Positions 9,965 to 45,319 of a DNA stretch of 64,000 nucleotides are shown here, piece by piece. The position numbers and the translations under genes are program-made. Each line of letters starts with the position of its first letter. Positions within the stretch are counted from its first letter, which is position 1. Below the pieces are notes generated by a model that was not told the origin of the DNA, did no database searches, and worked only from the letters and a program-made list of their open reading frames with translations. The stretch is from Ceratodon purpureus (Eukaryota; Streptophyta; Bryopsida; Pseudoditrichales; Ditrichaceae): positions 56,663,375 through 56,727,374 of the forward strand of contig CM026426.1 of NCBI GenBank assembly GCA_014871385.1, written 5' to 3'.

Positions 9965-9972
9965 TATAAAAG
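9965..9972 (+). promoter_or_regulatory. TATA-like box in AT desert
   Basis: TATAAAAG preceded by GGG and followed by about 100 bp of GC-richer sequence in an otherwise AT-rich stretch. No reading frame follows, so it may be a relic promoter, for example of a decayed transposon. Confidence 0.25.
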
Positions 9973-10569: not shown

Positions 10570-10577
10570 TATAAAAG
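10570..10577 (+). promoter_or_regulatory. TATA-like box with pyrimidine-rich downstream region
   Basis: CCTATAAAAGCCC followed by a C/T-rich run and CAATAACC about 30 bp downstream looks like a plant Pol II core promoter. No gene is visible downstream, so any transcript would be non-coding or the gene has decayed. Confidence 0.3.
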
Positions 10578-11559: not shown

Positions 11560-11640
11560 TTTCATTTTAGAGTGAAATGTTGAATTTCCATTGCAAAAGA
11601 CCAACATAATGCCCGTAAAGAAACACCCCCGCAAATTTTA
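11560..11640 (-). mobile_element. Degenerate LINE-type 3' tail
   Basis: The minus strand reads TTGCAATGGAAATTCAACATTTCACTC followed by an A-rich run, closely matching the LINE-like 3' end at 3.35 kb. It is short and flanked by AT-rich sequence; no clear duplication was found. Confidence 0.4.
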
Positions 11641-17819: not shown

Positions 17820-18600
17820 AAATGAGAGCGGACACTCCTTCATAAACGCCGGACCATGCATAATCGAAACAGCCACTAGGGGAAGTGATGAAGTAATACT
17901 ACCTTTGTCAGTTTTGACATGTGCAAGCACTGCAAATAGGATATAACAGCTTACTCTAAGAATAGTTTTTTATTATTCAGTCATCGGCTTTTGTGCATTT
18001 CAGGGAATCTTTGAATTGGTCATAACGCTGCAGAAACAGATGTTGAGCATGCAAAACTATTATTTGTCTATTAGTATTTACCATTTTTATGATTCAAATA
18101 TCTACCTTTATAAGCGCCCTATTCTAGTCATTGGCCCTAAAACTGAGTTTTTGTTTTCGCTTCTTGTAAATGTAATTTTTTCACTGAAAAGGCGTTTATT
18201 TAAATAGAGTTCGATTTTGATTATCTATAATTATTTAATATAAATTTTTTTTGGCCCCCTTCAAACCAATACAATCAGATTTGTTCATGGGTATTTTAAA
18301 ATCGAGCTGGCAAATGGGACTATTTGATTGTTTTCTTCCTCTGAGATCGATCGATTTTTACTGCATTTCATTGGTACTTTAAGGTTTTCAATGATTCTTA
18401 CGATACGGAGCTCCTAAATACTGGTTAAATTACTACATACTGCATTTGATCTTAAAGTTCTGCATTATTGGACAAAAAGAACATTTGATTAAGTCGTGAA
18501 AATTACTTATTAAATATTAACAAAAAAGTACATAGGAGATTTAGGTATGCGGATCTTGCTCCTACTATCAGTATTAAACCGACTAATACGGTTCCTCTAA
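17820..18600. other. Intergenic region without recognised gene
   Basis: AT-rich with no credible frame. A 24-bp string at 18464-18487 (starting ATTATTGGACAAAAAG) recurs exactly at 9253-9276 in the desert. Confidence 0.5.
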
Positions 18601-18870
18601 CTTGATGCTACAACTGTCTGCAAAGTATCAAAGTTTGCCAATGCTAGGAAAATTTAGTCCCTTCAACTTCTTTTTACTGTTCAACTCTGCGGCGCTTAGT
18701 CTGGGAGGTTGGAGGAGAATCTCCATTCTCGAATGCTTCCCCTTCCTCATTACCTTCCTGAGTCGCAGTGGGATGAAAGTCGCTGCTTGGACTGCTTGCT
18801 CGGTCTGTTGATACAACCCAAAAGTTAAATCAAAGACAGTATGCACACACAAGAATGTACACTGCATTAC

Positions 18871-19770
18871 CTAAGTGAAGGATTTAAACAAACAACGAAT
18901 CGCACCATTGCTGCAGCCACCGGAGGAGGAAGAGTCAGAAGATCCATCCGTGCTCGATTCCGATTCAACAATAGAAGGAAATCCGAAATTTCGGAGCCAG
19001 CAAGGTGGAAACGGCTCTCTGCATGACTGTCGTGAACAATCTGGATAAATTGCCACTCGTATGGCAAGACAAAATATATGATAGAAATGGCCACAGGGTG
19101 AGATCTGCACTTCATTGGCAGGGAAGCCGTGGTCGTACATTTCGCATCTCCGACCATCATCAGGCGCTGGTACTCTCGGACTGTGAATTCGCCTTGACAG
19201 TTTAAGGTGAGTATGCTCTGCGTAGCTATTCAGTGTCTCCAGCACCAAGTCGTTCTCAGCTTGAAGCTCGTCAAGGACCTCACAAAGGTATGATGACTCC
19301 CTCTCAGCCTCAAGCAGGAGAGTAAGAAGAGAATTAAATTCATTGAAGCCAGGATGGTTGCGCAAGTTAGTTTCAGCACGAGAACGCTCCTGTCTGAGCT
19401 CAAACATCTTCTCTCGAAGCTCAATCAGATTAGCTCTAGTCTCGCTCCGAACCTCCGGGTCTACCGTGGTCGCGTCGATATTCTTTGCTTGCGAGATAAC
19501 GTCTTTTACAGAATTAGCACATAGCTCATAGCGATTGTGTACGTCACGCAGAATTTCCTCAAGTTGGGCTAACTCACTACAACCGTCACCTTCCTCAGGA
19601 AGGGAAGGAACCTCTAATGTGAGCTCGTCCCTCAACATCCGCTCGCGGACTTCCCCGAGGCTAAGACTCCTACTCGCTTCATTCGCCAGGCGGCACTTGT
19701 GTGCAAGAATTGCAGACACTCTAGAAGGGCGCGGACGAGGACTAACATTCAGTGGAGCCCCACTCGACAT
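18871..19770 (-). CDS. RING/coiled-coil protein, paralogue B
   Basis: Open frame from ATG 19770. It starts with a short Pro/Arg-rich segment, followed by a long coiled coil (about residues 60-200, Glu/Arg/Leu-rich) and a C-terminal RING-like finger near 19140-18985. The finger keeps CxCGHxxHxxxC-type spacing (SPCGHFYHIFC) and a later CxxxxC, but the first CxxC is CEMY, i.e. the second ligand is Tyr. A Ser-rich tail follows and the frame ends after ...FKSFT, where a splice donor towards an exon near 18.87-18.6 kb is possible. The N-terminal helical domain of the other paralogues is absent, so it is short for its family. A palindrome (19975-19988) lies about 205 bp upstream of the ATG. The missing ligand may weaken E3 activity. 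Confidence 0.6.
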   Translation of the reverse strand: MSSGAPLNVSPRPRPSRVSAILAHKCRLANEASRSLSLGEVRERMLRDELTLEVPSLPEEGDGCSELAQLEEILRDVHNRYELCANSVKDVISQAKNIDATTVDPEVRSETRANLIELREKMFELRQERSRAETNLRNHPGFNEFNSLLTLLLEAERESSYLCEVLDELQAENDLVLETLNSYAEHTHLKLSRRIHSPRVPAPDDGRRCEMYDHGFPANEVQISPCGHFYHIFCLAIRVAIYPDCSRQSCREPFPPCWLRNFGFPSIVESESSTDGSSDSSSSGGCSNGAIRCLFKSFT

Positions 19771-19974
19771 ATCTAATATCAAGCAAACACTACACTCTAC
19801 TCAGGAAGTCAAGAGAGAAACCAGTTCACCAATATAGTTCCACTGTATGATGCTCCACAAGAGAGAAGAGTTCAGTAGTTGTGACTTCAACGTAGACAAC
19901 CCGATGTTTATATGCAATGCTGTGTTATAGCCGTTTGTAAATTGTCATGCTTTAATCAATGTAATATGTCGAAG

Positions 19975-20717
19975 CGGCGCCGGCGCCAAATGCATGAAAT
20001 AGATTATAATGTTTATTTTTTGAAATCCTGACAATCTCAGATGGCCTCTCACATTGATTAATGACTTAAGGATTCGGATCTTCACCAATTTTTCGTGAAT
20101 CCCAATAAATTCTTAGGAAAACAGCTGCGTTATAGATGTTGGACAGTTACCTGCCATGATATTTTTGAGAGACCGTCAATGACTAGGCCGTTTCAGCGGA
20201 CTAGATGGTTAATGGCGCCGGCGCCATGCCCCATTCGAATCAAGATATACAAGTTACATTTTAAATATTCCTGTTTGTGATTGAACCACTGGGAACGGAA
20301 CTTTATTACATCGTGAAATCGCTGATCGGAGTTTATTTGCGATTGTCTGCAATTCTCATGTTATTTGTTCTCATGACTGTTTCATCAATTACTTTCTAAT
20401 AGCATTCTGAAACCAGTTTCAGATTAGAGGAGTACTTCCAAATTGAAAGTTAAATTACAGGAATCCATCTACCAGTATTACTCATCATCATTACCAGCTT
20501 AACCAACAGCAATCTCATGTACGTGAGTGAAGGCCGGGAATCTAATTTGTGTACTTCAAATCTAAAATAAATTCGAGAGTCTTGTGCGAGTGTAAACAGA
20601 CGCGGACATAGATATAATCTGGTTTACGAAAGATGGTCAATAAAAAATGTCGGCAAATTACAATTCGACTGGATTAAACCAGGATGTTCATTCTGCCCTC
20701 ACTTGGCGCCCGCGCCA
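19975..20717. repeat. Three TGGCGC-NN-GCGCCA palindromes
   Basis: 19975-19988 (first base C, otherwise perfect), 20213-20226 (perfect, spacer CG) and 20704-20717 (perfect, spacer CC). They occupy the gap between RING paralogue B and the 3' end of the MULE transposase. Confidence 0.85.
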
Positions 20718-20755
20718 AATATAAGTCGTCTAAGTAGTACACTAGTCAGCATTCT

Positions 20756-23700
20756 CTATTGCAGGCTGCTCCAATTGCTCATGATCTCATCAACTTCCAG
20801 TCGACTTAATGTTGCTTGATGAGGCCTCTCATCCTCCAGTGTCAAGCCTAAAACAACGTTGTAAACATGATACATGTGTTTACACGTCATAAAATGGTAA
20901 CCGTTCTTGCTGTCTGCCACACTGCTTACAAAAAATTGACAATTACAGCCGGGTGTGTCACTGATGGTGACAACATAGCTTACTGGTTTGTTGAACGTTC
21001 GGGATATGGTATTCAAACTGAATCGGTATGTTCCTGATGCTGGATCCTCATCCAACAGACGCACTTGGGCAGTCATCATTAATCTCTCCTTTCTACGAGA
21101 CTCCCCTGCATCGGTCAAGGACCTTCGATTTACCTTCTTTCCACATCGCCGTGCAGGTCTCTTCGAAGGGTCGTGAGTCGATGGCTTCGGTGGAGTATTC
21201 ATGTCCCTCTGATATTGTTGTGACCTTTGACCTTGACCTCCCCCATGAATTTCGGAAATTTCGACAACGGCAAACCCTCCGCTTGCTAGCTTATTGGCCT
21301 CTTCTGGTGTCAACTTTGTCCCTGTTTCAACAGGCCAAATCCTTGGTAGAGGTGGCGGCTTCCCACCCCGAAGCAGCTGTACATGATTGCTTGCGACACA
21401 GCCATTTACATATGGTGCGCAGAACCAAAATACTTGAAAACTTTTTGTGTATCGATGCTCCATCGTTCCGTAAAAGCTTGGTGCGGCATGGCTTGCATTA
21501 TGCACCGCTTTGATATCTCTAGCACATGTTTCCCATTGACCATTGCGATTAATAACCGCTGAACATCTTGGATTTTCATTTGGAAGACATCTTCGGATAG
21601 CCCAGTCCTTGTGATCGGTATCTTTCTCGATTACTGGAAGTCCAAACTGGAATGCTTGAGATGGGTGCGTGCGATGTCTTGGACCTGGATATGCCGTCTG
21701 ATAGGGTGAATTTAGCGGACTCCAAGTCCCCATACTTGGTTGCATAGACGGATGCGAGAAGTTCTGAATACCAGAAATAACATCACGGTTGCCGTGGTCC
21801 CTGATGTTTGCAGACGAGCTTGGGTCTGGTAAGGAGTGGATGGACTGCTGAAGCCTGTACTTGATGATAGCATACGAGCTTGGGTCTGAAATGGAGAGGA
21901 TGGACTGCTGAAACCTGCATTTGATGTCTGCATACGAATTTCGTATGGAGTCGATTCAGTGCTGCAAGCTGTACCTGGAACCTTGAAGGAGTACTCACTT
22001 GCGTTCTCTTGATAACGCACAGCGCCTTCGAGTGGGAACAATTCTTGAAACCGGATAGACTCTGATTGAGAATAATCATCTTCCCTTGGGATACGAGAGG
22101 TCACTCCTTGCGGGCGATTATTGTTGGATGAGAAATAATGTGTTGGCGACGATGGATACTCCGACGGGTATGATTGGCTTGGGTGAAGATTGACAGGGAC
22201 AGGTGCTGGCGCCGGCGCCATGACCTCGTCCTGAAGTGGCCCTAACAAACGGGTCGATCTAAATGGATTTGGGTTGGTAGTTGGCGCTGGCGCCATCTCA
22301 CGAACTGGATCGTTGCTCCGTTGATGCTGAAGTGAATCCTGCCGTGAAAGTGGGATTCGCGCTTGAGGCGAGTCAAACAGATTCCTATGAAAAGATGGGG
22401 GCGGTGATGGAGTAGCGAATGAGAATTCAGCCTGGTCCACCCAATCAGGAGTTTGATTTGCCACCATCCCTTCGAAACCAAGTTCCCTTCTTCCTAGGTT
22501 TTCATAATTCTTGAATCCAGGAGGCTGATGTCTGAGAGGAGGTCTAACGCTTCGACTGTCCTTGTCTGGTCGATGTGACCTTGCCATTTTACGCTTCCCT
22601 GGGCGAGACTGACATCTAACACTCTGAGTTCGGTCCAGGTCACCCTCTAAACCCAAGCCACGTGAGTGAAACGGCGTACCTTCGACAGCAGCCTTCACGG
22701 CCATGGCAACTCTCTCAGGTTTGTGAGACCTGGCTGCATTCCGCCACATCAATTCGGCCTTTGAAGGACCTGTGCCACGCAATAGTCCTTTCGTAGCGGC
22801 CAAACAGAATTGTTGCTGGAGTAATGATCTTGTCATATCTTCTGCACAAACTGTATACAAATCCATTTTCACTTTGAATCCGCTGGCCGAAGTTGCCCAC
22901 ATTGAACTATGGACTGCTTCGCATAGATTTGTATTCGGCACAAGCGCTTCTCTCTCTAGGTCAAGTTCAAGTTCATTGAGATGATGATATGCAAAAAGTG
23001 TGCGCCTGGCCATCCACCAGGTCATCCATGCCATCATATTTCGGAGATTGTCCTTATGCACAGCTCCCAAGTTAGTCCAGAACTCCTCGAGTTCAAATGC
23101 AATTTCTCGGAATTCCTCGTTCGTAGGAGCAGCTGCCCATCGCTTGCAGAGTTCCACATGGTGAGTGCGGTACTTCTCTAGTACCCACTTGTTCGTATGT
23201 TTGCGGATACTTTGAACAAAATGAAAATAGCAAGTCCGTAGGATTGGGTCATTTGGATTAAGGACTGGTTCTTCGCCTTCGACGTTGCCATCCAAGCCCT
23301 CCGACTGTCCAAATACTTTTCTGACAGCGTTATAATTTGCTGGAGCGGCATCGGCCATAAACCCTTTAAACTTTGGTCGAGGCTTACCACTGTGAACTAC
23401 GGTCTCTATCAGTAGCTCCCAGAACTTCACTTGGTTCTCCGTGTTTTCTAGTTTCATCTCACAAACTGCAATTGTCAGGAGCCTTTGAATACTGTGGTCA
23501 TATACGTGCGCAGCCATTGTTGTCCACAAGTTCACACGTTTGATATGGTCAAACATGATAAATGAGTCTTTGAGATCCCCAGATGTCATCCTTTGCACAA
23601 TGGCAACGCCGCTCCCAACGCCCACAGTTGACATCTTGAATACAAACATTAATTCCATTGTGAGACCGACCTGGAAAATGACTGTCTTGAATATAGCTGT

Positions 23701-25261
23701 AACGTGAGTACTTCTTCAAGGCGAATATACAGCGCTCTTGGTCAGACCTAAATTTCGTCACAACATGTTTGACCCGTCCCTTGTCGTGATAAGGTGGAGC
23801 AGATTCCAGAATTTCATTTAGCTGCGATTCTGTCAGATATTCTTGCTCCTCAACATTGGTGGTTTGCATAATCAAATCAAGGAAATCTCTATGAGCACAC
23901 CGAAATCCAACCCACCCAGGCGCATCCATGAGCCAGGGGTTCTGATCAAGGTACTTCTGTATGGTGACTGTCATGTTGGCATATGCTTCCCGACTTCTTC
24001 CGGGAGGAGATGGATGGGAATGTTTGCCAGTATGGACCACGGCTCGAGTATAGAGGTCGGACTCGTGGTGAACGACCCAAAGTATGCTCGAACACTCCGA
24101 CACACAGGTAGGAGTCCATTTGCAAAACGAGCACCTCCAATCACCATCTATGGGTACAATGCCGGTTTTAGGCTTGGCCTGGCACCGGCCATCCCAAAAA
24201 AGTGTGTTCGGTGCCCCATGCAGGGGGAGGTGGCCGCATTCCGGACTCCTGCATATGAACGAACCACTACAGAACGATTTCCGAACACGGAGGCCTGTGT
24301 CTTCTATGAGGTTTGACTTGTAACTATTTGACTTTACCCATGGGTGACCATCAAAAGAAATGTCTGTAGAGATTGTATCATCGTCTAAAACCGGTGGAAG
24401 TTCAAAAATTATATTGCCATCATAAACCATCGGAAGATAATTGCATTTGATCTTTTGAAAATCATCAAATGGAAGGAGAGCTAACTCCCCTGTACATCCT
24501 CGGTGTGCCAAGCCAATCAACAGGGGTAGTATGGACCGGCTACCTGGGATATGGGCGAGTTCCTCTGCTTTGACTGCAACATTCGCTCTTGGCATGCTTG
24601 GGTACGATATATCTTCCATCTCGAAGCCCTCAACACTGTCAACCACTTGTGTTGAGGCACATGCATTGTGGACTAATGACGGGCCCGCCATATGAACCTG
24701 TGGAGGTTCACTCCGAAACCCATTTGGTGTTGCAAATCCGTCCACAGCTTGAGCTCCTGTTGTTGCTCGAGGAGAATTGCCACCACCACATGGCGTGTCG
24801 TCAATTCGTTCAATAGGATAGTCTTCCAGCCTATTAGGAACTCGCGAAACTGAAGATGTACCTTGTAACTCTCTTCTCCGGAACGACATCTGGCTACTCG
24901 TGCTGGCGGTGTCAACAGAGGTATCGTCTAGCTCGATCAGTGGTATAGGTGTCCTTGAAACTATTCCAGCAGCACTCTGAGGCCGCGAAGCATCGGAATG
25001 TTTCTCACCAAACACAATGAAAGAGGCACCATCAAGTACCGGCAGATTGAATCTGGACTGACCTTCTTTCCTCTCGGGCCAATAATCCCCCCTGAAAGCA
25101 CCCTGTGAATCTATTTGCTTGACGTGTACAGTCCCCTCTTGCAAATTAAACGCCAATACGAGTTCCAGCTCTGTTTTTTCTATGTCAGCATCGCTGGACG
25201 AATACTTCAAATGGGACAGTTCCCCCGATAAGCGTAAGATCATTCTACTAGTGTGCGCCAT
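20756..25261 (-). pseudogene. MULE-type DDE transposase with SWIM finger, two frameshifts
   Basis: Three consecutive minus-strand frames (25261-23549, 23658-21712, 21745-20756) form one gene of roughly 1490 codons. In order: a Cys-rich zinc region (CRSPECGH ... CSFCKWTPTC); DDE residues in MFDHIKR, GFMADAAP and NLCEAVHSS, as in Mutator-like transposases; a Pro/Ser-rich linker; and a SWIM zinc finger (CNCQFF ... CKHMYH). Frame 1 passes to frame 2 near 23675 at a T-run, and frame 2 back to frame 1 near 21800. The two shifts cancel, so the first and third parts share a frame. The start is ATG 25261, divergent from the methyltransferase-like gene with about 580 bp between start codons. Two palindromes lie inside the linker, encoding MAPAP. 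As read the protein is broken; assembly indels are an alternative. Confidence 0.75.
22207..22295. repeat. Two palindromes inside the transposase reading frame
   Basis: Perfect copies at 22207-22220 (spacer CG) and 22282-22295 (spacer TG), 75 bp apart. On the coding strand both read ATGGCGCC..., giving Met-Ala-Pro-Ala-Pro in the same phase. Confidence 0.85.
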
Positions 25262-25680
25262 TCTACTAGTGTGCTATAGAAATTTAAAAATCCAAGGGAC
25301 TGGTATCATAATTCGTGGACAGCCTTGGATCTGTGGACTCAAACTAAACAACCACTGTAAGTCACGTCGATGCGTTTCGGCTTGGTCTTCTTTATAAGTT
25401 CTTAGGGGATTCTGTTCAACAGATTGCAACGGGATAATCCATATAAAATGTGGTAAATTCACAAAAGCGCTCATGGTAACGGGCAAATTCATACGAATTA
25501 AACCATAGCCGTCAAACCGGTGATGCAAAATTAAGTATCGCATCAAAGTCTTCAACAGTAACATTCTGCCGAAATCTATTACGAGCTCGATCTGCCGATC
25601 TAAGTTATTGACGAATGAGAAGCATTCTCCCAACGGAACTCTGTTTCCTCGATGGTACGTGTGGACAATTCCCGGTCCCG

Positions 25681-25690
25681 TATAAATAGA
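25681..25690 (+). promoter_or_regulatory. TATA box of the ParB-like/methyltransferase gene
   Basis: TATAAATAGA is a near-ideal plant TATA box, 164 bp before the ATG at 25845, giving an expected start of transcription near 25.71 kb. A short upstream frame (ATG 25757 to TAG 25780, 8 codons including the stop) lies in the predicted leader and could damp translation. The interval up to 25261 is shared with the divergent transposase gene. Confidence 0.6.
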
Positions 25691-25844
25691 TGCACTCCAG
25701 TTGACCATATCCTCGCAATCACTACCAGCTTCCTCTCGTGCCCTTCCTCTCGTGTCATGATCGTTGCCTGTTATTATTAGTGTAGAAGTACCTCTTGGTT
25801 ATCTTCATAAGTCGGGTCACGCTAAGACAAGACAGGTGGTTAAC

Positions 25845-28800
25845 ATGTTATCTGCGCCATCACTCCTCGACGGGCTTCTCTCTGGATCCGCCGCTGCTAG
25901 GGGTTCGGGCACTGGATCACTGGGTAGGATGGGCAAGGCTAAGCGGGGTTCGGACTCGGAGGGCGGCTTGCGCAAGAAGAAGAAGAAGGCGGGATCGATT
26001 TCGCAGTGGCTCGGCGGAGAGGTATGTTATTGTTCACCTCTGTCTAGTACTGTGGCTTCCGTGTTTATGTTGGGTGTATGGCGCCGGCGCAAATACCCCG
26101 ACTAGGGTATGTTTCCAAAGTTTAGTAATGACATTGCGCACTGCTTTGTGAGGAATTCTATCTACTACAATGTTGGGTCATAGCTTTTTTGTTTCTAGGT
26201 TACTGGAACCGCGAGATTGCTTTTGCGGCTAAGTAAGTGTCTGAATCATTAAGTGTTTTCAAAGTATTACGACGACACAGATTAATACGGTTTATTCTCT
26301 CATAGACTTGTGGTAAATGGTGTTTTGCCAAGAGCGCGATATCAGGTTGATGAATTTTTTGAGGATACTCGCATCAGTGACTAGATTAAGACCTCAAGTA
26401 ATGAGTGGATTTTGTGTTTTTCCGAGTCTCTCTGCCGGTGTTTGAGTCAGATGGTGCCGGCGCGGCTACGGTCCATGATAACTAGCGGGAGCCCTTGTGC
26501 TAATTCATTGAATTTATAAACCGGACGGTATAGGAGTTAGCACTGCACACATCCTATTGAATTATTTCTCCATGGAAGTGTGCACTAGGTCGATGACCCT
26601 GCCAGATTTTTGGTTCACTGACCGCCGGCGCCAGTGCCTTAGATAGACTTGTTTTGAATCACCCGACCAACTTCACTATATGATTAACATTGAATTTATA
26701 TCTGAAATCGACGACAGCCTCACGAAATGTGGCAAAGCGTGCCAGCGCTGTTCACTTCCTTCTCGCTTGTTTTGTTTTTGAGATTGGTTCGTTTTGACAT
26801 GATATCTCATATCCACGACTGCCTTAGAACATCTGGCAAATGGTGCCGGCGCCGGTCAATTCAATCTCGCTACTGTTTTTATTGGGAATTGTTCTTTTCT
26901 TCATGACTGGTTTACTGATTTGTTCATTTTTATAGCTATGGCGTCAATTAAGGACAGTTCTTAAGTCATCTAATTTATCATGTGTCTTGTTTCCCTTTCA
27001 ATCCATTTGCTTCCATTATGTCGTTGCAGCCATGAATACTAGCGTATTTATTATCATTCGTGTGTTATTATCGTTGATTATTTATTTTCTTTCATTTTGA
27101 TTGCTCAGAATGCGGGTAAGGCCCCCACAGCTGCGGAACTTGACGATGAAGAGTGGAAGCCTCCGAACACTGAAGGCTATGAGAAAACCATCGAACGGAG
27201 CGAGAACCCCAACCCTAGCGTGTCCTCCTTCGAGAGCTTTCAAGAGACTTTGTTTAGTCAAGTGAACATTCGCAAGCACTTGGAGTATCGGAAGCTATTA
27301 CCTGTGCGCCTAGAGGTTCCGCTCTGCAGGCTGAAACCCACATCTTGGGTTCGACAAGCTCTTCCGGCCGATGTGCAGACTGTTTACGATGGGTTCCATA
27401 TTGGGAACTGGGGTACAAATTTTTGGGTCACTTGTTGTGGCACACCCGGAAAATTTCCAGAAGAAGAATTCGACGACTTGGAACGGTGGCAATCCGTATC
27501 GGATGAATTCGACGCTGAACTGGAAGAGCTTTGCGGTAGCGTTCCTCAGAACAGAGATTTGTATGAGAAAATTATGGGTCAGTACGTTCACGTCTGGGAT
27601 GGCAACCATCGTGCTCTAGCCTGGATGAAGCACATTAAAGACAACAACGGAGACCCCATTAAAGTGAGCTGCTTTGTCCTAAATGATACAGAAGCAGATC
27701 GGGGCTGGATATCGAACTTCATGCGCGACATAAACGAGTATGTCCTGCTTGTCTATTTATTCTACATGCTTGTTAATTCCATTTTGCGCTTCTTTGAATA
27801 TGTTGTGTCCTCGGACATCAGTAGATAGGAAGTCTTTTCGTTTATAACTTTCATCGGATATATTTCTGACCAGAGGAAACCCTGTGTGCACTAGTGGAAC
27901 TTCGAACACAACGGTTAAAAAGCAACTAGCCCATGTGCTATACGAGGTAATGCAAATTGCGAAAAGGGATCCAAAGGAGTACAGCCACTATTTTACAGAT
28001 GACGAGATGACAAGAATCAACGATGTCTGCAAAGGGAGGTGGTACAAAATGACCTGCGATGCCGTCACCGAAGTCTATTTCAAGGTGAGTTCAATTATTT
28101 CCTCAGTTTCACTTGGCTCTAGTCAGGGCATCTTCTTGTATTCAGCTTTGAGTTTACAAATATATCAAGTTCTTTTTCCTTATTCTTGCGCTCTATATTT
28201 TGTTTCTTTTTAGAATCTTCGGCCCCTGTGAACTACTCCCTGCCTCGGTGTTGATTCCTCCACGCGGACTTGCTATGCCTTCTATTAGATAACGATTGTC
28301 CTTTTTTATGTCTGTTACGAGTAGCACTGCTTCACTAAAACTATTTGGTTCTCAGTCACATTGTTTTTTTTTTTTTTTGAAGCAAGGAAATCCATTGCAG
28401 GAAGTTAGAGTACAAGCCCTCTTCGGGCAGAGCCCAGGGCAGGGTCACCACAGGATGATAGGATTAGTGAAAGGAAATGGTTGGCAAGTAACAAATAAAC
28501 CTGACCTAACACCTCAGTCACATTGTAATGAGAATAGATGTCGTTGAATTTTTAGTTGAGGGACAGACGGTGCCGGCGCCATCAGCTTTTGATGTTGTAG
28601 GGACTTCATTAAATTTGTTACTTTTGTGTAGTACTGCTAAACTAAGAGATCATTGACTATAATGTTTAATATTTGGATTTGAATAATGCGCAATTCGGAT
28701 TTCTCATACATTGCTTGAACAGTTAGGCATGTCTCTACAGCATCGGGTTATGTGAACAAATGTCGTATCATTGTTGCCAGAGGAATGATATTGTAATTAC

Positions 28801-31800
28801 TGATCTTGCAATGTCTTCGCCTTGCGTCTGTATCTGAACTTGCTGAAAACGAGAACTAATCATTCGGTATGCTGGGGCATTATCTCATTGAGTATTGTCC
28901 GTTCATTTATGCTCAATGTCTAGTATCCTGAGATCTAGTTTGACTGGTAAAGAGGGTCCATTCTGAGCTGAGCTCCTTCTTCCATAATCATGATGCATTG
29001 CGAGATTTTGACATTTCTATGTGGTCATCTCAGCGTGAGATTACATTGGCTGAGCGAGAGGGAGTGAAGGCCTTAAAGGATGAAGTCAAAAATCCGACTC
29101 CGAATCAGATTGAGAAAGCCAAGTTTGAAGGCGCACAAATCATCAGAAAAGAGAAATTAGACTACATGAAGAAGATTTTCAGGCTTTGTAATCCTAAGTA
29201 CCACCCTCATCTTGCTGATGAACTTGATGCTCACACGCGAGCACCTTACAGGAAATCAGGTGGGATGACCATTGACAACCTTGGCATTCTAGTTGGGGCG
29301 CAAGGGGTGGACATTCATAAGGTTTTAAAGCTCTGGAATGGGACCTCTTCTGATAAAGAACGCTATCACTTTCCCGATCTGGATTTTACAAGGACAGCAT
29401 TTCAGAGGTGGTTGAATCGCAGAGCTTGGTGGGAGCAGGTACGCCACCGGTTTTCTTATTAGACACCATGAAGTTGAAATGAATCGATATACTTCTCTTA
29501 CTCTAAATGGTCCTTTGTCAATATATTTTGTTGATGTTAATATGAGAATGGCTGTATATCTTGAAATGGAGTTCGTGCAATGCGTGCTTCGACATGATGG
29601 GCTGTGAATATTCAATTTTTTGTGTTTTCGAGATATGTGCTGTGATTCAGTGGATTGATGTGATGTTTGATTTGTTCCCATTTTGACGCAGATGGGCACC
29701 AGGGCATTTGAAATACTGTCAGAGTTGGTGACTAAATCGAAACCCGAGAAGGGAATTGGAATCGTAAATGCTGCTGATCTTCGCCCCCACTTCGAGGAGT
29801 ACTTTGACAAGGTTATGGTATTCGGATTTACCAACTTCTTTCCTGAGATCTTTCTTGCTGACGTGGGGCCTGTTCGGCACAAGTGTTGGAAGGATCAGAT
29901 TAACTTCGACTTGGGCGAGAAGGCTGTCAGGCGGTTCGTTATGAGGTTTGTTCGGTGGATTTGCGAGACGACTAGATTGCTTCCAAGGGAGAACGGGGAT
30001 ATCACTAAGTTTCCCGTGTTCGCTGACTGGCTCCGGATCTCTGACGATGGGGCTTTTACCGCGGAGCAGATTTTGAAACTCGATCCACCGCATCTTAGTG
30101 GGCTGGGTTGGTACATTGAAAATGTTCCCGATGCACAGGGCTTCATAGATGTCAATGACGAGGCCATTCTTAGCTGCGTGTCCAAGGAAATTGAAGCCGT
30201 AGAATCCTCATCATTATTGGAAAAGGCAGAGGCTCTTGACGCGACACTTGAGGAGATAAAAGAATTCGTGAAGGGCAAGTGCGACGAGGAGTCAGGAGAT
30301 AGCGACACGGTAGTTCCATCCTCTACACTACTTTCTGCGTTATCGGGTAGGCAAAACAAAGTGTACGTTCCTATATCTAACTCTTGGACTTCCATCGCTC
30401 ATTACGTTCCCGTAATGTTTCATGAGCTGCAGGAAATGATTGCCCACAAAACCGGGAAGGAAGTCCAGGGGACTCTATCGCAAGTTCAGGATTCTAGTGG
30501 CATCGTTACGGGTGTTAATTCGGAAGTCGACGGTTTGATTGATCACCCTCCAGTTATCAAAGAAAACAATATGGGAAGCGTGAGCGGTGTTCGGGAGGGT
30601 CGCAGTGGTGGTCACCTTCATAATTTGAGACCAAAGAAAGTTGTTCAAGAGGTCAGACTTGCAGATGAGCATCATCCGATCGGCTCGGAGATTGGCTCCT
30701 CTCAGCGTAAGTCATCGACTAAATCTGGGAAGAAGATTCAGAAATCGGACCCTGCTCGATCTCTGCCTGGGAAGTACGAAGCACTCAAGATTGAGGGCGT
30801 CGCGCCAACTGTCAAATTATCCATGAACTTTGCCTTTGATAAATTTGTCGAAGGGATGAAGCAGTCGGATTTTAATACATTCCTGGGCGCTATTAAGCAG
30901 GTACTTTGGAATACATTTGCTTTCAACTGGTTCGCCTCATAATTCAGACTCTCCACTACTGAAGCCCGAGTTGCAGCTATACGCTACTATCTGTCACTAG
31001 TTTGGCTTCGGATTACTGAGTGACCTGCTTAAGACTAAGTTATGAAAATCTGGAAGTAAATGTTCTTTGTCATTTAGATCAGTTTGTACATCAGGTTGAT
31101 GAGAGTATCCTTACTAAGGAATCCTGGTTATGTCGGAGAATATTGCAGGTGAAGGCGCTGGCCCCATTCCCCTATTATTAGCTTGTATTCGATCTCCGTC
31201 CCCAGTCATTTTTAAATTCTTTTGATTTCAAATTCGGGTATTAGTAGCTATTAGCTGAGTTCCATGCTGCGAAGAGAGCATTCGGTCATTTTTTCGTTTC
31301 ACTTGGCGCTGGCATGTATGAGGACATTCTATGTTATCAACCACAGGCCATTTTTCCCCCTCTGGGTAAATATTTCCTTTCCATGTCGCCTAATTAATAA
31401 AAAAACTCCTTTGTATTTTGCATATGCTGATTTGTCATATCATTATGGTTAACTAAAGTGTGTTTTTTGTGATGATTTCAGAAGCGGCTCTTTAAAGCTA
31501 AAGTGCTAAGGCGTAAATCCATGAGCCACATGAAATTCCAATTTAACGAAATTGCGAGCAAAGTCATGGATTGGAATCCGGAATCATCCGATGTGCTGGA
31601 AAATGTGGTGACTGATGAGAATCTACTGCGTTGCGAGGAGACGGTGTCATATCGTGGCTCTAAGCAAAAGTCACCCGCTTTCATGGAGACTATGATAGAA
31701 ATCTGCACTGGGAAAGGGAGCGCTGTTCTGGACTTAACGGGCGGAATTGCTAAGGCCTTTTAGTAGACTAAAGTAAAAATAAACTAAGAATTGCTACGCT

Positions 31801-32107
31801 TCTGAATGACTTATGACTTCATAAATAATGAGGAAACTGGGCAGGTTCTGATGACGGTGTTGATGACGCAGGATCATCTGTCCGGGCATGTGAGTTAAGT
31901 GGAAGACATGTTCTCGCCTTAGAGGCGGACGAGGCTGCATACAACATGTGTCTAAATGATTTCCCAGTGACTCCCGCTGGGGACAGGGGAATGGAGGATA
32001 ATCGTTTGCTAACCCTGCATCAGCACTTGGTCGAGCTCGATGGTCAATTCACTCAATCTACGGTACAACCTGCCCTCAGTGGTAGTTCGCATGGAATGGT
32101 GAATTAA
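25845..32107 (+). CDS. ParB-like / beta-class DNA methyltransferase-like fusion protein, 7 exons
   Basis: Exons 25845-26021, 27109-27737, 27874-28084, 28968-29438, 29692-30900, 31482-31749 and 31872-32107 join in phase to 1066 residues. Exon 1 is basic (KKKKK, likely nuclear). Exon 2 has a ParB-like pattern: VPLCRLKP...WVR, then VWDGNHRALAWM, like the DGxHR/GxRR box of ParB/Srx-fold proteins. Exon 6 gives QKSPAFMETMI...TGKGSAVLDLTGGI. Exon 7 completes it as GSSVRACELSGRHVLALEAD, matching motif X and motif I (DPFxGSGTT) of N6/N4 DNA methyltransferases in beta-class order. The catalytic (D/N/S)PP(Y/F/W) is not intact: the best-placed block is LADVGPVRHKCW; DPPH at 30082 is a weaker candidate. 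The exon 6 donor reads CT where GT is expected, so the C-terminus may not be spliced correctly. Bacterial and phage proteins combine such domains. Function, activity and base specificity are unknown. Confidence 0.65.
26079..26854. repeat. Four degenerate palindromes in intron 1
   Basis: Copies at 26079-26092 (right arm GCGCAA), 26452-26465, 26620-26633 and 26841-26854. Two of the four have GGTGCC in place of GGCGCC, a C-to-T change at a CpG. Their spread through one 1087-bp intron (26022-27108) is notable. Confidence 0.65.
28364..28512 (-). mobile_element. LINE/SINE-type insertion in intron 3
   Basis: A 149-bp insert with a T-run at its left edge (poly(A) on the minus strand), the family phrase TGCAATGGATTTCC, and a 13-bp target duplication CTCAGTCACATTG at 28351-28363 and 28513-28525. 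Minus-strand text GCTCTGCCCGAAGAGGGCTT resembles LINE 3' untranslated sequence. It lies inside intron 3 (28085-28967) of the methyltransferase-like gene, so splicing is not disrupted. Confidence 0.7.
28568..28581. repeat. Palindrome copy in intron 3
   Basis: CGGTGCCGGCGCCA, two bases off the consensus in the left arm and perfect in the right arm. Confidence 0.65.
31153..31317. repeat. Two eroded palindromes in intron 5
   Basis: AGGCGCTGGCCCCA at 31153-31166 and TGGCGCTGGCATGT at 31304-31317 keep one good arm each. They are listed because they sit in the same gene as the other intronic copies. Confidence 0.4.
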
Positions 32108-32330
32108 GGGGCGGAATTTGGAGTAGAACTGTTTAGTTCCGTAGAAACCTAGTCGTATATCAGACCTACTTGCTCAAAGGTTTAATGCCTTATTATTGTT
32201 ACCCTAAGCTTATAAAAATAATACAAACATTGAGAGAAATTCAAAGTCAAGTTCTTTGGGTTCTCAATATATGATTTGCCCATTCATGTCCTACGACATA
32301 CGTTTCATAGCTTTCTGTAAGCAATACTGA

Positions 32331-33006
32331 CTACTCCTCACAGTCTGTGTCACTTACTATATCAACCCAGAACTTAGAAATCATGTCAAAGTCCTTTACT
32401 GGATCACCTGTGTCTTCATCTGTTTCATGGCCTTGCTCCGTCGTTGCTGGCTGCCAAATGTAGCTTGATTGCTCCACAGTTCCATTGGTGGGAGACACGG
32501 GCAGGGTCATACGTTCTGCAATCTCCATCCTTGGTAACCACGGCGGATACGCTATCGGTCGATGGAGTTGCGAGTGCCAGAGACAGCTGCATTCTGCACA
32601 AGCACCATGAATTGTGATTTACACGATACTCTACAATCTGCTAAAAGCGATATCTGACTGTGGATTCGAAATCATGAAGCCACACTAGTCTGAAGACAGG
32701 AGTCAAGGTACCTGAACAGCCGATATCAGTCGTTTTCATGCTCCTCGCCCTCTTTCGCGCTTCCCAGTTATATCCATGGCGACTCCTTCGCTTCGGAGCC
32801 TTGCGCAACCTTCGCCTGAGAGTAGCCATCTGAAACGACGAAGTGTAAGCACTGGAGATTGGCCTTTCACTACCGAGTTTATATTCAGCAGTTAGGGCTT
32901 TGTGTCTAGACTGCGTTGGGTTTCGTTTTCTGCAGTAAGAGCGAATGATCTTGCGAAGATGCGCCAAAGTAGGGCTTGCACGGTTTCCAATGGTAACAGT
33001 ACTCAT
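32331..33006 (-). CDS. Small two-exon protein, basic N-terminus and acidic C-terminus, 185 aa
   Basis: Exon 1 (33006-32712, ATG at 33006) ends before GTACCT and joins in phase 1 to exon 2 (32593-32331) after a TGTGCAG acceptor; the intron is 118 bp. The first 98 residues are strongly basic (RRRLRKAPKRRSR, RKRARSMK), suggesting nuclear or nucleic-acid binding. The C-terminal part is acidic and ends VSDTDCEE. It lies tail-to-tail with the methyltransferase-like gene, 224 bp apart. Clean splice sites and maintained phase support a real gene. No known family is recognised, and an initiation at the internal Met of exon 1 (MATLRRR) is possible. Confidence 0.5.
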
Positions 33007-33402
33007 TATGGAGGATGCGCCAGTTTCAGTTCTCGACTGTACAGGTTTATATTGTTTGTACAGTTTGATATTGTTTGGATCTTGGATCTATTCCTCCAAA
33101 AACTTTATGACGTGAAGCATATTCATATGGACATTGATGACCTGCATATTCAGCTAGATGTACCTGTTTGTTTGAATTTGCATTTGAATTGGTTACAAAA
33201 ATTAGTGCATTAACACCTTTTCTTGCATTGTTTTTGATAAGTCCAGGACATCACATATCATGATATTGTCGTTGTCTTCCTTGGCCATTTCTAATATGTA
33301 GGACCGTGGTTAGTGATTTTGATGTGTCTGCCCTTATTACACCAGAGCCCTTCTTCCAGTGACTACTTCGTGCTATTTTGATTCAGGGTAATCCTGAGTT
33401 CG

Positions 33403-34042
33403 ATGGCGGGGAAGCACTCCACATATGTTCCATCAGCCTTGATGGTAAACTCAGCCCCTGTGGTTCCTCCATCGAAAGGTCCAATATTTGACGCATTGAT
33501 GGCTGGTATGGCAACACGGTGGGTGGATTTTATCCCTGGTGCGCAGATTGTCTCCGATGAAGGGGGTGGTGATAGTAGCGACTCCGATTTTGAACCTAAT
33601 TACGATTCCATTATGCCTAATTGCTCACTGAGTTCTCGATGGTTTCGATCACTGTCCGCCAATAGATTGATGAAGCTACTATCTGAGATTCTACCTTTGT
33701 TAGATCCTTGCCCAGATGAGCTGTTCCCTTGGGACATCAGTCTACGATGGAGTATGCGCCGATAAGTTTCCTTATCATCCTCACTTTTTATTGATTCGCG
33801 GAGGGAGTTTTGGGCCAGTTTCCGACCAAGTCTCGCTTTACTTGGATCGTAATTGGGAATCGCTGCCCGCTATGCAGGTACTTCTTTCAAGGCGGGTCAA
33901 AGGAGGCCTTTGTATGCAAGTTCTTGATTTCTGGCAGCTTGACCGAAAGGCGAAGCGTTGGATACACCGTGGTACTGGGAGATATTTGGTAACTGGCAAC
34001 AAGCGCTGGGAGGAACTTGAGCTCCAGCTCACTCACACATGA
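33403..34042 (+). pseudogene. Unknown gene, probably frameshifted
   Basis: A frame from ATG 33403 (preceded by a TTGATTCAG acceptor-like site) encodes about 115 residues with an acidic stretch (SDEGGGDSSDSDFEP) and a Leu-rich helix, and closes at 33765. A protein-like frame in another phase overlaps from 33716 to 34042. Either a frameshift near 33750 or an unresolved intron (GTATGC at 33751) links them. In a third phase CPLCR is seen, but no complete RING. No family is recognised. It follows the methyltransferase-like gene in the same orientation. Confidence 0.35.
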
Positions 34043-34271
34043 AGGGACTATTAGTCGACTAGGAGGATCCTGTATTGGAACAGTTCCTTTCGTGCGTTAT
34101 ATGTCTTTTTTGTTTCGGTTAGTTTTGTTTGGATCAGGATATGTTGTTCGACTATTGATGTATTATTCTTCATATGAGTCGCCTCCGTTCCTATCAGATT
34201 TGAATCTTACTCGCGTGTTTGTTTTTTTATGTACACACTATTTTATATATTTGCCGCTTTGTAATGCTGAG

Positions 34272-34470
34272 TGGCGCTGGCGCCAAAAAGGCTGCTTGCG
34301 ACCCACATTTACAGGATTCTCTTGTGATTCATTTCGTATCATTGGCTGTGTCATTTTAATGGAATCTTTTGCGATTCGAATCTTGATTTGTTGAATCTTT
34401 TGAGTTCGTGTTTGCTCTGCAACCTTGAAGCTGTGATATTTTTTAGCATTTGCATTTGGCGCCGGCGCCA
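34272..34470. repeat. Two TGGCGC-NN-GCGCCA palindromes, last of the series
   Basis: Perfect copies at 34272-34285 (spacer TG) and 34457-34470 (spacer CG). No further copy with both arms occurs in the remaining 29.5 kb. Confidence 0.85.
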
Positions 34471-35506
34471 GATGAAGTTTGAATTTGGAGCTCCTGTCTT
34501 GATTATGCAGCTGATTTTATCCGATCTAGTCGTTTTTGTTTTTATGAATGGTTCCGTGCGAACTAAATATTGTACTGGTTTTGGAGCAATTTGCTTGTAT
34601 GTGTGTTGGATATGTTATTTTGTCAGTTTCTGGTTATCAAACTAGGACTGTTGCGCACTTGGGATCTGAGCGTTATCTGTTAATTTATTTTCTCTTGGAT
34701 CTAAGTAATTCATACACGTTTATTACACGAATGACTATCCAGTCATGAGCAAGCTAATTTTTAATTTCGCTGTTTTTGTTGATGTCATGTTTGGCAATCA
34801 TTCTAATCTATCCTTCTGTTCATCAATTTTATGGATCTATTCTTTGCCGTAGCGGATCGTATGTATGTATTATTGTATGTACAGACTGAGTCTACACTGG
34901 ATGATATACATATGTACATTAGGTTTTCATCATCGTTGTATTGGACTGTACGCGTATACGGTTGGCACAGGTATAGTTCATTTACTCCTGGACGAATGTC
35001 CGATATCGTCCGCTTTTTTTATTGCACCACGTGTTGATTCTCACATATAACCTGGCAGTTGCCAGGTCTACACGCACTCCGAGTGGCGCACTTCGAAACT
35101 CTCTCCCCAGGGCTGGATAATTCTAATAGTATGAAGGAAATAAAAGAGAGCTAACCTATTTGCTGGTGGGGCACAATCTACGTTGACATGTAAGTGCAAC
35201 GACAGTATTTGTGAAAAACTGAAGTTGATTGCTGCCATGCCACCGTGGACTCAATTAAGAGCCTTCAGTTCAGTCACTTTCCTCTATTGGTACATGAGTC
35301 GAAGAAACAAGATTATTAGCAAGATTACTACCACCCGACACTTCCAACCATCCTAATATTCTCTCTTCCTAACCTGATCACAGACCTCAACAAAGTGAGT
35401 ATGCCTAGCGCAGTGCCGGCACGTCTCACTGTAATCACAGTCTCTCGTTCTATGCATGGTTATCTAAATCAACTTTTCATCCTTCAGTTCCTGGACACGT
35501 GTACCA

Positions 35507-40529: not shown

Positions 40530-42150
40530 GCCATGCTTCAGTGCCTTTTTCTTTTATTTGGTTCTACTTGGGGAGCTATATCTCGCACAGTGATTAAGGT
40601 GGAATTAGTTCAAATTCATATTCAACTCAACCTCCAATTTTCATTCATCTATTTTTCATCCACCCTTAAAAGATAACATATGAATGTTTCCTTCAAATTT
40701 CAGTAATTACGAAAACTGTTTTGACCGAGCCTCCATGCTTCAGTGCTTTATTTTTTATTTTTATTTGGTTCTAATTGGGTTCAGTTCTGTTCACACTGAT
40801 TGGAGGTGTGTTCTTTCTTATTCATGTTTCATCGAATCTGGCTACTTCATTCATTCGTTTATCGTTCACAAAAGTTAAGGTCACTTTAATGTTTCTTCAT
40901 CCTTGCCATGCTTCAGCGTCCTATGGTTTAGATGCTTCAAATTGGATTGAGTTCTGTGCAAGCCGATTAAGGAAGAATTAGTTCTCATTCATGTTTCATT
41001 GAAACTTCAATTTTCAGTCATCTAGTTTTCATCCATCCACAAATGATGCACGTGCACTTCAATGTTTCCTTCAAATTTCAACAATTACGAAAACTATTTT
41101 GACCCTTGAAGTGCTTCAGTGTTTTTTTTTTCTTTTTTAGTTGTTCTAATTGGATTGAGTTCTGCGCCTTGAAAAAAGATTACCACTAAATGGGCTAGAA
41201 ACTGGGCAAAAAATGATTAATTGTGAATGAAGAAGTAACAAAGTAGCAGGATTTAATTCACAAGTATAATGAATTTAGAAATCTGTAGCAGATTGAATGG
41301 TATCTGAAGATAATAAACTGCTGAAACATACTTGTGTTCTTTGAAAAAGAAAGACATTAGACTTTGGAATATAAAGATACTTCTGGAAAGAACCTTGGAT
41401 ACTCAATTGCTTATATTGGTTTTAGAATTATACAAGACTCTGCTAATGGTTGAACAAAATTCTAAGTATTGAAAAAACAGTGATAGTAAAGAAGTTCCTA
41501 CAGAACAATTTACATCAAAATCTTCATATCCGGTAAAAGAACTCTTCAATGAAAATAATTTATAAAAGAAAAAAAATAAAATAAAAAAAGCACTCGATCT
41601 GTGCGGGCGTGTAAGCGTGGTGGGATGGGTGTCGGAGGGTGGATTCGAACCCGGCACGAGCACCCTGAGGCCGCCACGTCAGTTCGAATCCGAAGCCTCG
41701 GATCACCAAGCCACCAAGGCTTTGACGAGAGAGAATGTGTTCTGAGCATATTTATAACAGACCTTAGATCCTAAAAATCAAAAAAATTAAAAAATTAAAA
41801 AAGTTTGCGCTACCAACTGCGCATCGAAAGCGTGGTGGGGTGGGTGTCGGAGGGTGGATTCGAACCTGGCACGAGCACCTTGAGGCCGCCACGTCAATTC
41901 GAATCCGAAGCCTCGGAACACCAAGCCACCAAGGCTTTGACGAGAGAGAGTGTGTTCTAAGCATATTTATAACAGACCTGAGATCCAAAAAATTCAAAAA
42001 ATTAAAAAATTAGAGAGTTCTACTTTAGAACTTTAAATCTCGTATTCTGATTTATGCATAACTAATATGCATCTCCATGTTCCAAACTCAGGATTGCATA
42101 AAAAATTCGATTTTAAATTAGGCAATGGACACTAAATTGAACATAGAGTC
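40530..42150. repeat. Left arm of 1.6-kb inverted repeat
   Basis: Nearly identical, in reverse complement, to 58510-60140: 261-nt blocks are the same base for base (41403-41663 versus 58996-59256). Identity starts near 40530, is highest at about 41.16-41.75 kb and fades inward of about 42150. The arm contains degenerate ~200-bp subrepeats on its outer side and two tRNA-like modules on its inner side. It carries no gene. Confidence 0.9.
41585..41965 (-). repeat. Two tandem tRNA-like modules in the left arm
   Basis: Modules at about 41585-41745 and 41805-41965, read on the minus strand, each have TTATAAATATG, then TGGCTTGGTG (A-box-like), then GGTTCGAATCC (exact Pol III B-box consensus; GGTTCGAATCC is within GCCGGGTTCGAATCCACC). 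The T-stem is not complementary, so they are not functional tRNA genes; they resemble tRNA-derived SINE heads or Pol III cassettes. Confidence 0.55.
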
Positions 42151-43120: not shown

Positions 43121-45319
43121 TCATGTTGGAGTAGTAGGATTTGCTTCTGCTGCAGCTGCACATGCAATGTTCACAATGTGTCTTAACTCGGTGGGATCCA
43201 CGGTTCCAGGAGGAGTTCCAACGATCAGCTCAAGTTTTGCATCTACGAGTGGGCTGCAGCAAAATGATGCCGTGTCGTGGCCTGCATTGTCGACTTTGGA
43301 AACTAACTTCTTCAGGGTATCACTTGCAGCAGCCTCTCTTCGCTTTCCGCAAGTCGTTGCTGTCGTGGCGCCGCTTCCTACTTCGACGACGTTGTTCTTG
43401 TGAACAGTTACTTCTTCACAAGAGGGTGCTTTAGTGGTGACACCAGGTGCATCGACACATAGTGGAAAAGCAGGCTCCACAGACATGTGCTCAAGCACTT
43501 CGTCATCGGGCCCATTTTCCAGCAGTGCTGGAAGACAAGCTCGCTTGGGGAAGGAGATCAGGGGTGACGGTTCATCAGTGGTCTTCCGCTTTGTGAATTG
43601 TGTCTTTGCTTCAGAGCGACTCAGCGGAGGTGCCCAACCTTCTCTCTTCACCGCTGCTGCAGCAGTGCGTGCGGTAGCAAAGTCAGACTTGAAGCCCCAT
43701 TGTCCCATCCAGCCAGCACATGGCTTGGCATTGCAGCCAGGACAGCGTGGTGAAGCATTGAGGGCGACCTGGAACAAACATATTGGGTGGAGAAGACATC
43801 CGCAAGGGAGGTTTGCTAAAGCCATGTCAGCCCAGTAGCGTCCGCACCCCATAGAGGGGAGGTGCGTCTTCAGCGGCACCACTTCTCCAAGGTTCACAGG
43901 AAATGTTGTATAAAAATGTTGTGGGCGTATACAACTCTCTTGAACTATGAGAACATCAATTTTTGCTTCAAGTATCTTAATGGACTCCTGAAGCTGCAGC
44001 AGCTGAGAACGTAAATTGGCGGCAGCTTCAGTCCAGTGCTTAATCTCAGGGTTTAGGGTCGCCAGGTTGGTAGACACGGCAACTGCATCCTCCATGAGTA
44101 CTCTCAGGCGCGCATCAATCACCTTCTTAGCGGCGTCATCCATCGAAGTCATTGCTTGCTTGGAATGTTGGATACCAGCGAACTCGTCCCACTTGGTCTG
44201 CTCCAACCGCTGCAACTCCTGTCGCCTAGATTCCCGCATTGCAAGCGCTATTTCAGCGCGCTCCAGTTCATCCTTCATCTTGATGAGTAATCCTTCTTTG
44301 AAATCCCGTTGCTTCAGCGGAGATGCGGATCCCTCTACGGTGGCGAGCTTCTGGCGTCCAGTGTCTGAAGTAACCTCAAGGGGTTTCTTCTTACTGCTTG
44401 CCGAGGCTGTTGCAGGAGTGGGCGGAAGCAGGTTCGGAGCTGGAGCAGGACCCTTGACCACCACACTTCGACGGCTCACAGGTGACTTCCGGATCGGCAC
44501 TTTGACTTTAGGCTCTGGAGCACGTAGTTGTCGCACAATACCTCCTGGATGCGGCACACCTCCCTCAGAGATGGTTTTTGCTGCCGCATTCTTCTCGCGT
44601 ACCACCTTATCGACTACTGCTCTGAACATTTTCAGCATCGCCTGGATCTGCTCACGCAAGCACGGCGGTGTGAGCTTCGCTGGATTCAGCACTGGACTTT
44701 TGAGGCGGCTCTGCGTACATAGAAGCAACAGTTAGTCTATGATGATATGATCCAAATCAACGAGGAGAAGATATACATCAAAATTAAGGAGACTTACTTT
44801 CGCTATCTCAGCAGCACCTTCGGCCCAGTTGATTTTCCAGCGTTTGGCATCAAGCATTAAGCCTCTGACAAATGCCGTGCCAAACTCGCCATTGTCTGGA
44901 GCTGTCCCCCCATAAACGCGTTGGTACATCCTAAGTGCCCTCGCTGCAACATCCTCTGTCATATGCCGCAATGGATGGCGATTTTCATTCTTGTTGAGCG
45001 GATAGGTGCCCACAATTGCTTCAAGTGGCAGGTTGTGCTCTTCCTTGAGTCGCTTGAATGGGACGCCGCTACCACATAGTCCTCCCACGTCAACAGAAAA
45101 ATCAGAGCTATAGCATGCGGCGTCTCCAAGCAGAAATGGAGCCACGCTTGTGAGGTGCTTCCGCATATTCTCACCCACTCCTCTGAAGTCGAATGCCTGA
45201 GCCCAAATCGAAGGATTGATGAAATCAGAACTCAAAGGTGCTTCAAAGGAGCTAGTCTCACTAGAACTCGCATGAGCTGCTGACACAACCACTCGTTGTG
45301 GCTTCTTGCTTTTCCCCAT
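43121..45319 (-). CDS. RING/coiled-coil protein, paralogue C, intact, 703 aa
   Basis: Exon 1 (45319-44798, ATG at 45319, donor GTAAGT) joins in phase 0 to exon 2 (44710-43121, acceptor ACGCAG). Exon 1 encodes the N-terminal helical domain shared by this family, with the signature VYGGTAPDNGEFGTAFVRG. Exon 2 begins with a linker rich in Lys/Pro, then a coiled coil (about residues 300-430) and a RING-like finger (LPCGCLLHPIC ... CPGC) ending in W..QWGF. The first CxxC of the RING is degenerate. About 180 residues beyond the finger are poorly ordered. This is the only copy in the window with no stop or frameshift. It is transcribed towards the left inverted arm. E3 ligase activity is possible but not assured with the missing ligands. 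Confidence 0.75.

Follow-up and report, generated by a model that had tools for sequence, protein, structure and literature searches.

Transposon proteins that join a ParB-like part to a DNA methyltransferase (MTase) have been described in brown, red and green algae (PMC12477816). In the Ectocarpus element Sola1-1_Ec32, a ParB and MTase protein of 1104 amino acids (aa) is encoded on the strand opposite the transposase, and it was proposed that prokaryote-type DNA modification domains let algal transposons mark their own DNA (PMC12477816). In this study, a window of 64,000 nucleotides (nt), which denotes the whole stretch of DNA analysed (C6:56663375-56727374), was taken from the genome of the moss Ceratodon purpureus (362,488,568 bases in 151 contigs). 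The window holds a spliced gene at 25845-32107 inside a transposon copy; the gene most probably belongs to a multi-copy transposon, in which it is a selected accessory gene for a ParB-like and MTase-like protein, and the copy in the window has decayed. Green and red algal counterparts of such proteins were reportedly described by Iyer (2011) and Petroll (2025), as cited by the Ectocarpus paper.

The moss family resembles Sola1-1_Ec32 in that a large DNA transposon encodes, opposite its transposase gene (transposase-like in the moss), a large protein with a ParB-like part and an N4C/N6A MTase domain (about 1150 aa versus 1104 aa); it differs in its moss host and in the non-canonical motif IV of the window's lineage, and the two are likened by architecture, not by sequence (PMC12477816). 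VANC of the Arabidopsis VANDAL elements is also an accessory protein of a plant transposon, but its anti-silencing role is comparable by functional analogy only, and the start of the abstract mentions no ParB or MTase domain (PMC10398659). Fungal DNA transposons with TET/JBP dioxygenases likewise carry a DNA-modification enzyme, although both the enzyme and the host kingdom differ (PMC12730594). No ParB-MTase transposon of a land plant was found in the titles and abstract openings of the top search results from the open-licence literature. What the present data add to this literature is carriage by a moss, the extent of the radiation, and a selected non-canonical motif IV.

Gene Structure and the Missing Motif-IV Exon

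The initial annotation had proposed a seven-exon gene that fuses a ParB-like domain to a beta-class DNA MTase-like domain. The seven exons indeed join into a single open frame of 1044 aa, and the motifs were found where they had been placed: VWDGNHRALAWM in exon 2, QKSPAFMETMI and VLDLTGGI in exon 6, and GSSVRACELSGRHVLALEAD in exon 7. All exons lie on the plus strand. Exon 1 (25845-26021; 59 aa) is also present in the sister copies, that is, the other family-A copies read; exon 2 (27109-27737) contains the ParB/Srx-like domain with a GNHRxxAW box; exon 3 (27874-28084) and exon 4 (29034-29438) follow, the latter placed by the joined frame and by comparison with the sisters; and exon 5 (29692-30900; 403 aa) forms the middle region. 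Exon 6 (31482-31748) encodes motif X and the start of motif I, and exon 7 (31871-32107) encodes the remainder of motif I and the C-terminus. The gene is not a chance arrangement of open frames, as exon 2 and the MTase exons recur across the genome in long open frames, with at least 150 matches per search.

The model was, however, incomplete, as it missed an exon between exons 5 and 6. In all five sister copies read, this position is occupied by a 324-nt exon of phase 0/0 with AG/GT borders, the product of which, DLI(V/I)CDTPDNS...WN...GFILLFVP, corresponds to the motif-IV part of a beta-class MTase. Family B has the exon as well, 327 nt long in the copy that was read, and homologous exons preceded by AG were found in families C and D. 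Thus, motif IV lies upstream of motifs X and I in the sisters and in the three other families, and is deleted in the window. Compared with the copy on C4 (L010), the window lacks 744 bases (L010 3204-3947), the full exon being L010 3676-3999; the last 52 nt of the exon remain at 31314-31365, with the deletion junction at about 31313/31314. Among the 150 matches listed in a genome search with the sister motif-IV exon, the sisters were included and the window locus was absent. A stretch of exon 5, LADVGPVRHKCW, was considered as a degenerate motif IV and rejected, since its D is not conserved in the sisters, where GPVRHKCW is conserved, and the missing exon is where the real motif IV is found.

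Since the lost exon is of phase 0/0, the frame stayed open and the seven-exon model looked whole. Joins like those of the window gave proteins of 1150-1152 aa without internal stops in all five sisters. The donor of exon 6 is GC in the window and GT in each of the five sisters, and the former was therefore read as a mutated donor. That the seven-exon gene is functional, with the extra exon of the sisters a later insertion, is hardly credible: the frame is open without the phase 0/0 exon, as would be expected, but the "inserted" stretch contains an exon that families B, C and D have in common and that supplies the expected motif IV, which rules out a simple insertion; moreover, the end of this exon is retained in the window, and the exon-6 donor and the neighbouring transposase-like gene are damaged too. 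As judged from the sequence, the window copy cannot encode a complete MTase, because the deletion of about 744 bp took most of the motif-IV exon. The possibility of a "domesticated inactive version", raised in the initial annotation, is accordingly replaced by that of a dead copy of an accessory gene, with an MTase broken by deletion, in a multi-copy element.

The Transposon and Its Copies

The transposon copy in the window extends over about 16.6 kb (18486-35109), with a sharp right end at 35108/35109 and an approximate left end, the latter owing in part to N stretches in the copies L046 and L047. Copies on C4 and C6 align to the window over 18486-35109 at 98.4-99.2%, and copies on C9, C11 and C12 cover almost the same interval in piecewise alignments at about 72-88%. 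The flanks beyond the right end differ across the six copies viewed. With up to three mismatches allowed, a pattern taken from 30 bases of the right end was found at 19 places in the genome, and the reversed control at none. Seventeen of these places lie downstream of a listed gene copy in the same orientation (by eye), usually about 8 kb from the gene and in one case 17.6 kb; the other two have no listed gene copy. A perfect hairpin, CCTGGCAGTTGCCAGG, is located at 35051-35066, about 40 nt inside the right end, and is kept in all six copies viewed; it could serve as a recognition site.

A transposase-like gene (20759-25273, minus strand) lies upstream of the spliced gene and is divergent from it. 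In the window, its frame is broken into three pieces of 574, 667 and 399 aa (25273-23552, 23715-21715 and 21955-20759), whereas it is unbroken in four of the five sisters (1497-1516 aa) and split in the fifth (820 and 684 aa). The gene is labelled transposase-like on the basis of a SWIM-like zinc cluster, CxCx18CxH, and other motifs that we read as transposase-like. The family-B gene is preceded by a homologue (58% and 55% identity, in two pieces), and a family-C gene has one upstream in divergent orientation (29.7%; expect value (E) 3e-65). The neighbour reported in the initial annotation as a transposase is thus upheld as transposase-like; its adjacency is not that of a host gene which happens to lie beside a transposase, because the two genes are paired divergently in families B and C too. 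An intact element of the family comprises a transposase-like gene and a divergent eight-exon gene for a protein of about 1150 aa, with a ParB/Srx-like GNHR box in the N-terminal part and a beta-class MTase domain at the C-terminus.

Two further frames belong to the element. A RING-like frame of 309 aa (18874-19800, minus strand), coiled-coil-like with a RING-like Cys/His cluster, is open in all five sisters and has a homologue of 54% identity in family B; its matches to Pfam RING models were below threshold in all cases. The frame at 33406-34042 (plus strand) is conserved, as tblastn matches without stops were obtained in five of five sisters and four of four family-B copies (47-58% identity), and it is split near 33736 into two frames in the window.

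These results largely refute the proposal that the locus encodes a host writer of N6-methyladenine (6mA) or N4-methylcytosine (4mC), either domesticated or horizontally acquired. A spliced gene with motifs X and I and an open frame of 1044 aa would suit such a writer, but the gene lies inside a multi-copy element, its motif IV is deleted and the adjoining genes of the element are broken as well, so that a host role here is very improbable.

Searches with exon 2 and with a distant exon 2 each gave at least 150 matches in the genome, and gene copies are located on C1-C13. Family B holds recent, near-identical copies (98.9-99.8%). C6 comprises 110,524,308 bases, or 30.5% of the assembly, and is presumably the V rather than the U chromosome, judging from chromosome sizes. 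The U and V chromosomes of C. purpureus are each larger than 100 Mb and make up about 30% of a 360-Mb genome (PMC8000587). The distribution was counted by eye on the 81 of 150 listed motif-IV-exon matches with E of 4.3e-34 or better, leaving out 69 weaker ones (fragments and distant families). Thirty-eight of the 81 are on C6, and seven contain stops, six of them on C6, which suggests that copies, including broken ones such as that of the window, gather on the sex chromosome. Among the 150 listed matches, 27 lie in MTase-like open frames of exactly 447 aa, mostly with equal scores; the one read (L049; C1:7884800-7888000) has QVPD at motif IV. A further match, at C5:3957415, lies inside an open frame of 3776 aa.

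The Methyltransferase-Like Part

The joined protein of the window matched PF01555 (N6_N4_Mtase) with E of 7.8e-5 and 23.2 bits, below the curated cut-off of 26.7 bits, over positions 163-217 of the 221-position profile, which correspond to motifs X and I. The MTase parts of its relatives scored 27.8 bits (family-A sister), 38.6 bits (family C) and 37.9 bits (family D), and the matches of families C and D span nearly the whole profile. All 32 listed genome matches to PF01555 exceeded the cut-off; no stand-alone MTase of host type was recognised among them, 11 places having been read (L027-L036 and L048). A profile of alignment A1, which consists of six sequences (one of family A from a sister, one of B, three of C and one of D) and leaves out that of the window, matched DpnA (6.6e-8), CcrM (2.8e-6, profile positions 26-236), RsrI (0.0056) and an N4-cytosine enzyme (0.017) among structures of the PDB. 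The kinship of the gene family with MTases is therefore regarded as firm at the level of sequence comparison. The beta-class assignment of the C-terminus in the initial annotation stands, since relatives pass the Pfam cut-off and the profile matches DpnA and CcrM; in the window itself, the domain lacks motif IV.

DpnA, CcrM and RsrI (PDB 5hek, 6pbd and 1eg2) and the moss family have the motif order IV - X - I in common. The moss proteins differ from these enzymes in having D-x-P-x rather than DPPY at motif IV, a ParB-like fusion, and a spliced gene within a transposon. The canonical catalytic motif IV is (D/N/S)PP(Y/F/W). No family read carries this consensus. Families C and D are one position off, with DQPF, DTPF or DQPY in the 11 places read with the exon (L028 and L037 counted once), whereas DTPD was found in five of five family-A and four of four family-B copies read. 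Single copies of families E, F and G have DVPE, QVPD and DIPE, respectively, all without the aromatic residue and, in F, without the acidic residue too.

No prokaryotic or viral relatives were found by the related-locus search, which reaches fairly close relatives only. A family-D MTase, used as tblastn query against phages, matched 80 records, and the 20 listed align with its C-terminal part only (query 147-246). The five phage regions opened contain short methylase coding sequences, of 239-280 aa in four regions and annotated as two coding sequences in the fifth; none of them has a methylase coding sequence long enough to include a ParB part.

The ParB/Srx-Like Part

The GNHRxxAW box is invariant in all nine exon-2 sequences, which also have an IPLCR or VPLCR stretch in common. 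The exon-2 profile gave weak matches to phrog_1033, a ParB-like family (0.053), DndB (0.012) and DUF1015 (0.049), all of which we take to have ParB/Srx-type folds. The best weak match was phrog_34256 (0.0042), a phage family without known function, and the others, which extend to unrelated families, include TehB, E2F, UPF0227, DUF5531 and SatS. The assignment of a ParB/Srx-like domain is thus plausible, resting on the GNHRxxA box, the sub-threshold matches and the analogy with the algal proteins. This is as far as the ParB-like domain of the initial annotation was borne out: the box is a plausible one, but kinship reached significance in no search made.

Selection on the Genes of the Element

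The ratio of nonsynonymous (dN) to synonymous (dS) substitution was calculated for seven sister pairs, the closest of which has a dS of 0.014 in the motif-IV exon; the window and its two nearest sisters have diverged too little for a reading. The dN/dS of the motif-IV exon was 0.018-0.059 in six of the seven pairs, and the closest pair gave 0.292. In exon 6, the closest pair differs by two replacement changes, and the other six have a dN of 0. Ratios at about the level of the motif-IV exon were obtained for exon 3 (0.025-0.075) and exon 4 (0.024-0.059), and higher ones for exon 1 (0.106-0.214), exon 2 (0.094-0.177) and exon 5 (0.166-0.254), in those six pairs; the transposase-like gene gave 0.183-0.237 in six of six pairs. 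In family C, the motif-IV exon gave 0.033-0.392 in five pairs, and two pairs were saturated. Judging from these ratios, strong purifying selection acts on the motif-IV exon and on exon 6, despite the non-canonical motif IV. That the MTase exons surpass all other parts of the element in conservation was considered and rejected, because exons 3 and 4 are about as tightly constrained as the motif-IV exon and exon 7 is not.

These data bear on the idea that the gene is a captured passenger of the Pack-MULE type, of no use to the element. Transposons do capture genes, and many accessory genes without known function are reported from Ectocarpus (PMC12477816). A passenger is nevertheless unlikely, as the divergent arrangement has been kept with transposase-like genes that are just 30-58% identical to that of the window's family, and constraint on the motif-IV exon and exon 6 is tighter than on the transposase-like gene.

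Other Features of the Window

Apart from the frame of the element at 18874-19800, coiled-coil-like frames that end in RING-like Cys/His clusters occur at 560-1396 (plus strand), 43124-44731 (minus strand) and 57131-58084 (plus strand). The frame of the element matches window 1211-1387 at 34%, and frames of this kind may serve several elements as accessory genes. The region 4001-12000 has 27% G+C, against about 43% on either side, and its internal open frames do not exceed about 96 aa. Separate tandem duplications of a 215-bp unit are present at 41613-42012 and 58647-59046, and their consensus units seem, by eye, alike in opposite orientation. About 11 copies of a G+C-rich 22-bp unit form an array at 47255-47502. 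Rfam and tRNA scans of the window gave no matches.

Proposed Role of the Protein

The family fits the type of ParB-MTase accessory gene of transposons in its copies, its exons and its divergent gene pair, with the ParB part recognised by its motif and weak matches, and with a broken copy in the window. Because of this structure, the copy number and the selection, the gene is read as a transposon accessory gene of which the window copy is dead.

Several observations weigh against this reading. Neither an inverted partner of the right end nor a target-site duplication was seen in the copies examined, and the element is for that reason not assigned to a transposition class. The intact 1505-aa transposase-like protein of a sister matched no Pfam model. 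The MTase part of family B scored 20.0 bits against PF01555, below the cut-off, and motif IV of the window's lineage has no aromatic residue even in intact copies. The end of motif I lies in exon 7, for which the dN/dS was 0.198-0.351, no tighter than that of the transposase-like gene, and in three of the five sisters no AG precedes the homologous start of exon 3 at a join like that of the window. As for the ParB-like part, no significant match to ParB models or to ParB chains of the PDB was obtained. PF02195 gave no match in the genome at E<=10, and had a match in 11 of 14 control genomes. In hhalign comparisons with a Spo0J-type ParB profile, alignments A2 and A4 both gave a probability of 0.1%; the A2 comparison, for which controls were run, did not stand out from 15 shuffled controls and a reversed one, and the few aligned columns of A4 were those of the GNHR and GERR boxes.

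That the gene is a selected accessory gene of the transposon is well supported, and we infer a mode of action for its protein as follows. In intact copies, the ParB-like part would bind element DNA and put the MTase-like part on it. In the DQPF, DTPF and DQPY lineages, the MTase-like part may methylate the element's own DNA; in the DTPD lineages, including that of the window, it may instead act as a non-catalytic module that binds S-adenosylmethionine (SAM) or DNA. As an outcome, the element could evade silencing or control when it transposes. The most likely role of the protein is to bind and modify element DNA, as suggested by its domains and by the precedent in algae.

A non-catalytic role in the DTPD lineages is a serious alternative. 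It is possible, if somewhat less likely than not, that the window's lineage has a pseudo-MTase, acting as a SAM sensor, a DNA clamp, or a partner in trans of active DQPF or DQPY homologues. The uniform DTPD of families A and B, a dN close to zero in the motif-IV exon and exon 6, and the single copies of families E, F and G are consistent with this. Selection could, however, equally preserve an altered catalytic mechanism, and all six sequences of A1 retain the D and P of motif IV.

Whichever role applies, matches to a "eukaryotic methyltransferase" in such genomes should be treated with caution, since the genes concerned may belong to transposons and some may be broken copies. A bolder proposal, rather doubtful as a whole, is that a land-plant transposon superfamily carries two kinds of MTase: families C and D would write 6mA or 4mC on element DNA, and the proteins of the window's and other lineages would be catalytically dead but strongly selected SAM- or DNA-binding partners, all this in the service of evading silencing. 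The moss copies, with the differences in catalytic motif among their lineages, form a natural comparison. If 6mA or 4mC were present on element DNA in the DQPF and DQPY lineages but not in the DTPD lineages, self-marking would be directly testable by long-read sequencing. If the proposal is true, the two-kind radiation would be a transposon counterpart of the pairs formed by active and inactive MTases.

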